Assembly (NCBI GenBank): GCA_902560505.1
Contig: CACELY010000010.1
Coordinates: 1-38,226, forward strand
DNA from: an uncultured Alphaproteobacteria bacterium
GTDB lineage: Bacteria > Pseudomonadota > Alphaproteobacteria > Rhodobacterales > Rhodobacteraceae
DNA length: 38,226 nucleotides
Direction: 5' to 3'
Shown here: piece by piece, positions 32,222-36,501 of the stretch
Position numbering within the stretch: the first letter of the stretch is position 1
Layout: the number at the start of each line of letters is the position of its first letter
Translations under genes and position numbers: made by a program
The notes under the pieces: model-generated
Told to the model about the DNA's origin: nothing
Seen by the model: only the letters and a program-made list of their open reading frames with translations
Database searches by the model: none

Positions 32222-33448
32222 TTAGCTGCATTTATTATCTATAAATTCAAGAAAAAGTGGCCGTATCTCGGTTCGCCAAGCCTTACCACTAAAAATACCG
32301 TAGTGACCTGCCCCATCTTGTATATGAGAAAACTTCATATTTTTTGGTAACTTATTCAAAATCTTTAAAGCTGCAGAGCATTGACCAGGTGCTGAAATAT
32401 CATCGTTAGTGCCTTCAATGATAAATGTTGGAATGGTAGTGATGTTTCTAAGATCAACAGGTTGTTCATCAATAGAAAACTCATTCTTAGCGATCTCTCG
32501 CTTTTTAAATATCCTATCTACTGTCGAGAGATAAAATTCAGCTGTCATATCCATAACTGCTAGATATTCGTCATAAAATTTGTTATGTCTATCATATTCT
32601 GATGCTTGACCTACGGCTTCCTTTTCAATTTGATCGATAAAAGCTTTACTATGAGTCTCCTGGTTCATTGCCATAAATGACGCTAATTGGATTGCTCCCG
32701 GATATACTTCACGTCCTACTCCTTTATAATTTAAGCCGACCGGCATGGTTACAGTTGACTCAAGTGCCTCCATCGAGGTTCTGCGACCAAAGTCCGTGAC
32801 ATTTGTTGGATTGGCATCAGGATCGATTGGCCCACCTATCAAAGTAAGTGATTTTGGATTAAATTCAGGAAATCTTTCTGAAGTAATCGCTGCAGCTGCG
32901 AGCGCAAGAGGAGCTGGTTGGCAAACAGCCATAACATTGAGGTCTGGTGATAGATCACGAAAAAAATCTACCAAGTACTTTGTAAAATCTTCAATATCGA
33001 ACTTACCTGCAGAAAAAGGAACATCTCGGGCATTTTTCCAGTCAGTCACATACACATCACAGTTAGGAAGAAGAGAAATAACAGTATTTCTAGTCAACGT
33101 TGCGTAATGTCCAGACATTGGAGCAATGATTAGTACTTTTCGATCTATTTTCTTTCGTCGTGTGCTCTTAAATTTAATCAGATTACAAAAAGGAAGTTCT
33201 TTAATTGTCTCTAACGCTACAAGATACTCAATCCCGTCCGAAATAACAGAGTCTATTCCCCAGTCAGGCTTAGACGTAATTCTTGATAAGCTGTGCTCAG
33301 TTACCTTTCCCCACGCTGCAAGAGTTGAAGGAATAGGACTTGGGTACAACCCAAATAATGGATTTTCCCAAAATGCTCTTGTTGTTGACGCGACCCACTT
33401 ATTGTATTGTCTTAAATTTTCGAAATAGTCGTATGTAGGTAACAGCAT
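32222..33448 (-). CDS. phaZ: Intracellular polyhydroxyalkanoate depolymerase
   Basis: MLLPTYDYFENLRQYNKWVASTTRAFWENPLFGLYPSPIPSTLAAWGKVTEH; MAVCQPAPLALAAAA nucleophile (Cys) box; VEGTNDDISAPGQC-like segment IEGTNDDISAPGQCSAAL. Confidence 0.9.
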   Translation of the reverse strand: MLLPTYDYFENLRQYNKWVASTTRAFWENPLFGLYPSPIPSTLAAWGKVTEHSLSRITSKPDWGIDSVISDGIEYLVALETIKELPFCNLIKFKSTRRKKIDRKVLIIAPMSGHYATLTRNTVISLLPNCDVYVTDWKNARDVPFSAGKFDIEDFTKYLVDFFRDLSPDLNVMAVCQPAPLALAAAAITSERFPEFNPKSLTLIGGPIDPDANPTNVTDFGRRTSMEALESTVTMPVGLNYKGVGREVYPGAIQLASFMAMNQETHSKAFIDQIEKEAVGQASEYDRHNKFYDEYLAVMDMTAEFYLSTVDRIFKKREIAKNEFSIDEQPVDLRNITTIPTFIIEGTNDDISAPGQCSAALKILNKLPKNMKFSHIQDGAGHYGIFSGKAWRTEIRPLFLEFIDNKCS

Positions 33449-33507
33449 AGTTTTTACTAGCTTTTTAAAATTAAGGTTTTATATCTACTCTATTAATAAC
33501 GATAGCA

Positions 33508-35319
33508 ATGAAAGTGCAAGAAGAAAACAAAAATCTGAAAGATGACGTTGCAGTAGGTCCGAAAGAATACAAGGAATTACTTAACAATTTTGACAAAATA
33601 GACACGCTTACAAAGCGACTCGTAATAGCTTTATCTTCTAAAACACCTGATCCTGAGGTTAAAACACAACCTTCACAAGAGTTATATTATAAAGCTTCTG
33701 CAAAATATTTTTCAGAAATTTTGTCTAATCCAACGAAGCTTATTGAAAATCAAGTTAAATATTATAAGTCGACTTTGGAAAATTGGACAAGTATACAAAA
33801 TGACATTCTTAAAAGTGCTGGTTCCAAAAAAGATCAAAAAAAGGAGCCTGAAAAGACTGATCAGGGTTGGGATGAAAGCCTATACTTTAAACTAATAAAA
33901 CAGCATTACACTATATCGTCAAAGATCATTGAAGAAACAATTGATGATTTAGATGGATTGAGCAAGTCTGATAAAAAGCAAATAAGTTTTTTTACCAAAC
34001 AGATGATTGAGTTTTTTTCTCCTTCTAATTTTCTAGGAACCAATCCCGAAGCTCTAACACAAGCTCTTGAAACTAACGGAAAGTCTTTGGTTGACGGTCT
34101 CGAAAATCTTGTAACTGATGTAGAAAATAGCACTGGTGATCTAACAGTATCCCTGACAGACACACAGGCATTTGAAGTAGGAGAAAATCTTGCTATTACT
34201 GAAGGTCGGGTTATTTTCAGAAATGATTTATTTGAGTTAATACACTATAAGCCACTGACGGAGACGGTTTCAAAGACTCCCCTACTCATTGTTCCTCCTT
34301 GGATAAACAAGTTTTATAATTTAGACCTTCAACCTAGAAATAGTTTCGTTAAATTCGCAGTAGAACAAGGCATTTCAACGTTTATTATCTCCTGGGTAAA
34401 TCCTGGTAAGGAGCATACTGAGGTTAATTTCACAGATTATATTGAAAAAGGCTTTTTTGAAGCCTCAAAAGTAGTTAAAGCTATTACAGAGCAGGAAAAA
34501 ATAAATTGCATAGGATACTGCATAGGAGGAACACTTTTAGCTACGGCCTTATCTTACCTTTGCAAAAAGGGTGAAAACTTCGTTAATTCTGCAACTTTTT
34601 TTACTACGCTAACCGATTTTGAAGACCCCGGAGATTTGTCATTATTTATTACAGATGAATATCTAGATGAGATAAATCGACAAATCGAAAAGGTAGGGTA
34701 TATGGAAGGGTCGTTTCTTGCTCAAACTTTCAGTTTTTTACGCTCAAATGATTTAGTTTATGGTCCCGCTGTTCGATCATATTTAATGGGGAAAAAGCCC
34801 CCTCGCTTTGATTTGCTCTATTGGAACGGAGATTCTACCAATTTACCTGGAAAAATGGCACTGGAATATTTGAATAATTTTTACAAAGAAAATCAACTGT
34901 CAAGAGGCGAATTAACATTAATAGGGGAAAGGCTTTCACTCAAATACATTGATATACCTATTTTCGTTGTAGCGACGCACACTGATCATATTGCTCCTTG
35001 GCGATCATCCTTTTATGGTTTGAATAAGTCCTCAGGTAACAAAAGGTTTGTCTTAGCTGGTAGTGGACATATTGCAGGTATAATTAATCCAGCATATAGT
35101 AAGAAATATGGCTATTGGACAAACTCGCAATCATTTTCGGATCCCGACGATTGGTTTAAGACTGCAGATCGACATGAGGGATCTTGGTGGCCATATTGGT
35201 CTACCTGGATCAAAGCTAGATCTAGCTCCCATGACAAAGCATATATGCCTGGTTCTCATAAAGACTATCCCTCTTTGGGGCTGGCACCCGGCAAATACGT
35301 TATGAAAAATTACAAGTAA
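33508..35319 (+). CDS. phaC: Poly(3-hydroxyalkanoate) synthase, class I
   Basis: INCIGYCIGGTLLATALSYL (Cys nucleophile box), PLLIVPPWINKFYNLDLQPRNSFVKFAVEQG, FVVATHTDHIAPWRSSFYGL, AGSGHIAGIINPA. Confidence 0.93.
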   Translation: MKVQEENKNLKDDVAVGPKEYKELLNNFDKIDTLTKRLVIALSSKTPDPEVKTQPSQELYYKASAKYFSEILSNPTKLIENQVKYYKSTLENWTSIQNDILKSAGSKKDQKKEPEKTDQGWDESLYFKLIKQHYTISSKIIEETIDDLDGLSKSDKKQISFFTKQMIEFFSPSNFLGTNPEALTQALETNGKSLVDGLENLVTDVENSTGDLTVSLTDTQAFEVGENLAITEGRVIFRNDLFELIHYKPLTETVSKTPLLIVPPWINKFYNLDLQPRNSFVKFAVEQGISTFIISWVNPGKEHTEVNFTDYIEKGFFEASKVVKAITEQEKINCIGYCIGGTLLATALSYLCKKGENFVNSATFFTTLTDFEDPGDLSLFITDEYLDEINRQIEKVGYMEGSFLAQTFSFLRSNDLVYGPAVRSYLMGKKPPRFDLLYWNGDSTNLPGKMALEYLNNFYKENQLSRGELTLIGERLSLKYIDIPIFVVATHTDHIAPWRSSFYGLNKSSGNKRFVLAGSGHIAGIINPAYSKKYGYWTNSQSFSDPDDWFKTADRHEGSWWPYWSTWIKARSSSHDKAYMPGSHKDYPSLGLAPGKYVMKNYK

Positions 35320-35343
35320 TTCTGCGATTGCAAAAAAAATATA

Positions 35344-35390
35344 TTGACATTTTATGCAAATGCAGCATATATTGCTGTATCCGCATAAAA
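35344..35390 (+). promoter_or_regulatory. phaP promoter (TTGACA - 18 bp - TATATT) overlapped by a 41-bp nested inverted repeat, candidate PhaR operator
   Basis: TTTTATGC aaat GCAGCA tatat TGCTGT atcc GCATAAAA (35350-35390); -35 35344-35349, -10 35368-35373. Confidence 0.75.
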
Positions 35391-35403
35391 AAAGGAGCAG
35401 AAA

Positions 35404-35811
35404 ATGTTTAATTTTGAAGATTACACTAAGAATTTTGAAAAAATGATGTCCCAAAGCCCTATAAAGATCGATGAAGCAATGAAATCCATAATGGATTATA
35501 ACTCAAAATTTGGGAAGATAGCTTTAGACACAGTAAAAAAGAATACTGAACTGTCACAAACATGGGCAAAGGAAAGTTTATCGGCCTTAGACCCTTTTGT
35601 AAAAAGTAATGAAAAACCTGAAGATTTTATGAAGATTGCCACCGATTATGTGAGCTCACAAACCCAAAGTACACCAAAGCATATAGCAGAGTTTGCAGAG
35701 GTGGCTAAAAAGGCCCAGCTAGAAACAATAGATTTGATGATGAAGGCCGGAAAAGATGCCCAGGAAGAGCTTACCAATGTGACAAAGAAAGCTTCTTCTC
35801 CGAAAGAGTAG
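35404..35811 (+). CDS. phaP: Phasin family protein
   Basis: MFNFEDYTKNFEKMM...LDTVKKNTELSQTWAKESLSAL...TQSTPKHIAEFAEVAKKAQLETIDLMMKAGKDAQEEL; between phaC and phaR; preceded by AAAGGAG. Confidence 0.88.
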   Translation: MFNFEDYTKNFEKMMSQSPIKIDEAMKSIMDYNSKFGKIALDTVKKNTELSQTWAKESLSALDPFVKSNEKPEDFMKIATDYVSSQTQSTPKHIAEFAEVAKKAQLETIDLMMKAGKDAQEELTNVTKKASSPKE

Positions 35812-35835: not shown

Positions 35836-35864
35836 AAAATGGTCGCTTAGCGGCCATTTTTTTT
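35836..35864 (+). terminator. Rho-independent terminator downstream of phaP
   Basis: AAAATGGTCG cttag CGGCCATTTT followed by continued T tract (T8 to 35864); one G-U pair in the stem. Confidence 0.85.
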
Positions 35865-35904
35865 AACTTATCAAAATATCATCTAGTTGATAAAATACAA
35901 CATT

Positions 35905-36501
35905 ATGGATAATGATTCAGATACAATAATCATCAATAAGTATAGCAGCAGACGCTTGTACAATACCAATTCAAGCGAATATGTGACATTAGATGATCTC
36001 TGTAGGCTTATAAACGAAGGGAAAAATTTTAAGATCATAGATAAGGACTCTGGAAAAGATATTACCAATCAATATTTGCTACAGATAATATCAGACCTCG
36101 AAAATAAAGAGGGTAATGTGTTTCCTCAAGATGTGTTAAAAGAGATAATTCTAAGTTATAACAATACAGCCCAAAAATTCATGCCTGAGATATTATCAAA
36201 AACATTCGAAGTATTTCACCAGCAACAACAGAGTTTTTTAAAAGCATTCAACTCACCGGCAAAAGAGAATAAGTCTAGCGAAAACAGTGCCGTTTTTTTT
36301 GAAGAGTGGCAAAAAAGTCAGGGTGAAATAATGGAAAAGATGATGCAGCCTTGGCTTAACAATCCCCTATTTAAAGAAAAGACATCTGAAGAGCCATCTA
36401 ACTCCAGTGTGTCAAAAGATAATAGTAGTGTGGAAGAAATAGACTCCTTAAGGCAACAAATTGAAGAATTAAGAGATATAATTACAAAGAAGAACCCGTA
36501 A
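35905..36501 (+). CDS. phaR: Polyhydroxyalkanoate synthesis repressor PhaR
   Basis: IIINKYSSRRLYNTNSSEYVTLDDLCRLINEGKNFKIIDKDSGKDITNQYLLQII N-terminal PhaR DNA/PHB-binding domain. ATG at 35905; track start 35887 is a TTG. Confidence 0.92.
   Translation: MDNDSDTIIINKYSSRRLYNTNSSEYVTLDDLCRLINEGKNFKIIDKDSGKDITNQYLLQIISDLENKEGNVFPQDVLKEIILSYNNTAQKFMPEILSKTFEVFHQQQQSFLKAFNSPAKENKSSENSAVFFEEWQKSQGEIMEKMMQPWLNNPLFKEKTSEEPSNSSVSKDNSSVEEIDSLRQQIEELRDIITKKNP

Follow-up and report, generated by a model that had tools for sequence, protein, structure and literature searches.

The 38,226-nt alphaproteobacterial stretch analysed here (the window) carries a long inverted repeat across the promoter of a phasin gene, phaP, and the locus raises the question of what part of this repeat, if any, is read by the repressor PhaR. 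The initial annotation saw in the repeat a nested operator. Comparison with relatives points instead to short TGC/GCA boxes, one of which lies outside the repeat.

The pha genes and the inverted repeat

The window has phaZ on the minus strand (32222-33448, assigned by Pfam), followed on the plus strand by three genes. These are phaC, encoding the PHB synthase (33508-35319; PhaC_N, E 3e-67), which ends just upstream of the candidate operator; phaP, encoding the phasin (35404-35811; Phasin_2, PF09361, E 1.4e-7); and phaR, encoding the PHB-responsive repressor (35905-36501; PHB_acc_N, PF07879, E 9.7e-24, and PHB_acc, PF05233, E 2.2e-6). The original phaP and phaR assignments are borne out by these Pfam matches, but phaR, with its ATG at 35905, is the next gene after phaP and not two genes downstream as had been annotated. 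Of 22 genomes of the genus, 14 have both genes and the other 8 have neither; one of these 8 is 90% complete, and the PHB cassette may therefore be patchy in the genus. The relatives of the locus are, presumably, single-cell genomes of marine plankton.

Between phaP and phaR, a run of T comes after a conserved hairpin, GGTCGC-TTA-GCGGCC (35838-35868). This is a likely terminator and suggests that phaR has a promoter of its own. A TTATCA...TTGATAA dyad is found upstream of phaR (35868-35898); its left arm is altered in three congeners (G012, G019 and G018), and it may possibly represent promoter elements.

The inverted repeat, TTTTATGCaaatGCAGCAtatatTGCTGTatccGCATAAAA, is 41 bp in length, imperfect and unstranded. 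It is located at 35350-35390 and is centred on the -10 element of the phaP promoter. The -35 element TTGACA (35344-35349) and the -10 element TATATT (35368-35373), both on the plus strand, are 18 bp apart. Repeat sequence, coordinates, promoter elements and the position of the -10 at the repeat centre all agree with what had been annotated. The -35 element is kept in congeners and is TTGAAA-like in the family, where the -10 consensus, nATATT, is one bp closer to the -35 than is the -10 of the window. Symmetry of the repeat extends over 15 of 18 arm positions, with 8/8 in the outer arms, 5/6 in the inner arms and 2/4 between them. The two-level symmetry first described is thus present, with one mismatch between the inner arms GCAGCA and TGCTGT; the CAGCA/TGCTG portion is perfect.

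The repeat is the top dyad of its size class across the 38-kb window. When the whole window is shuffled with dinucleotides preserved, dyads this good number ∼0.47 per 38 kb on average, and the symmetry alone is therefore unexceptional window-wide. When only the 84-bp intergenic region is shuffled, an equally good dyad appears in 8 of 5000 shuffles. The dyad symmetry is real and is unusual locally, yet it is not compelling alone.

TGC/GCA boxes around the -35 element

An alignment of the window with the regions upstream of phaP orthologues in 12 congeners covers 13 species of the genus; most of these are closely related, and conservation counts across them are not independent. TGC-N4-GCA sequences are present in all 13 species at two places. 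Box I, TGC-gatt-GCA (35323-35332, plus strand), is upstream of the -35 element and starts 3 bp past the phaC stop codon, outside the coordinates initially annotated. Box II, TGC-aaat-GCA (35355-35364, plus strand), is in the -35/-10 spacer, and its extended form, TTATGC-AAAT-GCAGCA (35352-35367), constitutes the left half of the 41-bp repeat. The starts of the two boxes are 30-32 bp apart around TTGACA in the 13 species. All 12 half-site bases are invariant in 13/13 species; in the rest of the intergenic region this holds for 32 of 72 positions (Fisher p = 1.9e-4; 13 species, mostly close relatives). When the window is compared with the most divergent species alone, G018, identity is 12/12 in the half-sites and 38/72 at the other positions (p = 0.001).

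A third and weak box, TGT-atcc-GCA (box III, 35376-35385, plus strand), is situated over the predicted phaP transcription start (∼35379), at +32 from the -35 element (35376 - 35344). Its centre is 21 bp from that of box II, and its extended form, TGCTGT-ATCC-GCATAA, is the right half of the repeat. The 41-bp repeat is read here as box II facing the weaker box III and not as separate inner and outer dyads: each box joins one 'outer' half of the repeat to the same-side 'inner' half. Box III is poorly conserved in the genus. The full TGC-atcc-GCA is found in G007, G010 and G012, the TGC half being exact in 3/13 species; the GCA half is retained in most congeners, and the box is degraded in most; in G005 and G018 it has moved or is missing.

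In the family, the phaP upstream regions of 102 other genera were compared, and the -35 element and a downstream box could be placed in 101 of them. Two [CT]GC-N3-GC[AG] boxes are found at fixed places either side of the -35 in 99/101 genera, 26-30 bp apart, and the core of the downstream box begins at exactly +9, counted from the first base of the -35. The same pair of N3 boxes is present in Pseudorhodobacter turbinis, a named relative. Box I of the window is the positional counterpart of the upstream family box, and box II is that of the box at +9. The spacer length differs: CTGC-N3-GCAG occurs 167 times in the 102 family regions and CTGC-N4-GCAG does not occur at all.

The window site is in a phasin promoter of a genome that encodes PhaR, and its two main boxes, each a dyad of TGC and GCA half-sites, flank the -35 element. 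The 3-nt spacer of the YGC-N3-GCR form is replaced by 4 nt in both main boxes in 13/13 species. Because of this difference from the N3 form of 99/101 family genera, the site is classed as a variant PhaR operator.

Published PhaR sites and competing readings

In Bradyrhizobium diazoefficiens, DNase I footprinting at phaP1 reveals two boxes, one on each side of the -35 and 6 bp away from it, and PhaR no longer binds once PHB is present (PMC6201568). Full binding requires both boxes, and in solution PhaR is predominantly tetrameric; Paracoccus denitrificans PhaR is also reported as tetrameric (PMC10888616). As in the window, two TGC...GCA boxes lie around a phasin -35 element, there 29 bp apart (positions -101 and -72), but the spacer is of 3 nt (TGCRNYGCASMA) and not 4 (PMC6201568, PMC10888616). 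Only two footprinted sites are described in that species, with no third box, whereas the window has the weak box III. Sinorhizobium meliloti phaP1 and phaP2 have two YGCRNYGCR palindromes that flank the -35 and resemble the window boxes in this arrangement and in their AT-rich outer arms, although this core has a 3-nt spacer (PMC12542648). A Rhodobacter sphaeroides PhaR site, cited as CTGCNNNGCAG in PMC12542648, has the same TGC/GCA half-sites, again with a 3-nt spacer, and almost every genus of the window's family has boxes of this kind. In layout and in their half-sites the window boxes agree with published PhaR sites; in spacer length they do not.

As first proposed, the operator was the nested double dyad itself, with inner GCAGCA-N5-TGCTGT arms and outer TTTTATGC/GCATAAAA arms, and one PhaR dimer would bind per dyad. 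The real and locally unlikely symmetry, centred on the -10, favours this proposal, but the published sites are TGC-N3-GCA boxes (PMC6201568, PMC12542648) and the proposal does not account for box I upstream of the -35. The initial annotation had suggested searching for the dyad upstream of phaP in close relatives. In the 12 congeners the symmetry at the same geometry falls to 5-14/18, with 12-14/18 in ten relatives and 5/18 in G005 and G018, both of which have boxes I and II intact. Perfect inner CAGCA/TGCTG pairing is found only in the window's species and G002 (2/13). On this conservation pattern the nested inner/outer dyad is rejected as the functional unit, and the nested reading is very unlikely. 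What stands of the original proposal is a PhaR operator on the phaP promoter, which the comparison supports. Chance symmetry of an AT-rich promoter with no regulator involved would fit the number of equally good dyads expected at the window's size and composition. It is scarcely credible, since the TGC/GCA half-sites are invariant in 13 species while the remaining region drifts, and the two-box layout recurs across the family.

A serious possibility, with somewhat less than an even chance, is that boxes I and II are the PhaR sites and that box III and the repeat symmetry are incidental, a start-site or leader constraint having mimicked a half-box. The better retention of the GCA half over the TGC half in the genus is consistent with this, as is the wide family conservation of C at +34 and A at +35, which a start site would predict. 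However, in 16/101 genera (e.g. L093, L102 and L292) TGC-N4-GCA overlies the predicted phaP start, exactly at +32 relative to the -35, with nine other occurrences scattered, and the two halves at +32 co-occur beyond independence (Fisher 6e-7, shared ancestry uncorrected).

A probable variant operator and its spacer

With gene identities, box conservation, two-box architecture and the spacing difference observed, the locus is in all likelihood a PhaR operator of the phaP promoter, made up of N4 boxes I and II and the weaker box III. PhaR from the adjoining gene would bind box I just upstream of the -35, box II in the -35/-10 spacer and, more weakly, box III at the start site, and would thereby keep RNA polymerase off. 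Once PHB granules are present, PhaR would shift onto the polymer and the promoter would open; the phasin would then be made and coat the granules. Binding, repression and PHB release are proposed here by analogy with Bradyrhizobium, Sinorhizobium and Paracoccus. As the window boxes depart from the published 3-nt-spacer consensus forms compared, recognition of the N4 form by PhaR is assumed. The earlier suggestion of two dimers or a tetramer occluding RNA polymerase is retained in part: more than one dimer, or a tetramer, is probable and fits the published tetrameric PhaR, but the geometry would be set by boxes I and II on either side of the -35, and box III would be a weak addition.

Other targets of PhaR were sought. 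Autoregulation of phaR through the same boxes was rejected, as no TGC/GCA box is present upstream of phaR in the 13 species. Control of phaZ and phaC was likewise rejected: no TGC/GCA box is seen in their divergent intergenic region (33449-33507) in the 13 species, whereas S. meliloti PhaR (AniA) also binds the phaZ promoter (PMC12542648). This intergenic region contains TTTTTACTAGCTTTTT, identical in 13/13 species. In the window's own genome (71% complete), TTNTGCNNNTGCANNA is matched without mismatch at ten sites. Boxes I and II account for two of these and the remaining eight are in long stop-free frames, and therefore no further promoter site is recognised among them. Degenerate box scans across the genus are too noisy for defining a regulon. 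A genus scan for the family-type TGCTGC-N3-GCAGCA gave scattered matches at or slightly above control level and none at the phaP promoter. Given how closely most congeners are related and that the genome is incomplete, PhaR may still have a wider regulon.

At the protein level, residues 8-68 of PhaR have 39 positions that are invariant among 31 family sequences, and at 13 of the 39 the genus is fixed for another residue. A sequence search for a PDB relative of PhaR found none. The change from a 3- to a 4-nt spacer accompanies these 13 changes in the DNA-binding region; this is a correlation only. Lineage divergence alone could yield the 13 changes, and co-evolution of repressor and operator is accordingly put forward as a hypothesis. 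Perhaps, and this is held tentatively, the PhaR of the genus shifted its recognition geometry by one bp, both main boxes going together from 3 to 4 nt alongside the changes in PhaR, with the start-site box having kept an N4 form found in part of the family.

The operator appears to be of a known type, and its new feature is that both main boxes have spacers of 4 nt, a length fixed in this marine genus. The comparison corrects which bases mutagenesis should target. In addition, with the spacer and PhaR both changed, swaps of proteins and boxes could test what spacing rule this poorly understood DNA-binding domain follows. If the shift is true, it would be an example from nature of a repressor and its operator co-evolving in spacing, on an apparently single target. 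PhaR matches the making of the granule coat to how much polymer is stored, and the known two-box operator is now assigned to an uncultured alphaproteobacterial lineage of the open ocean whose genomes are small and AT-rich.
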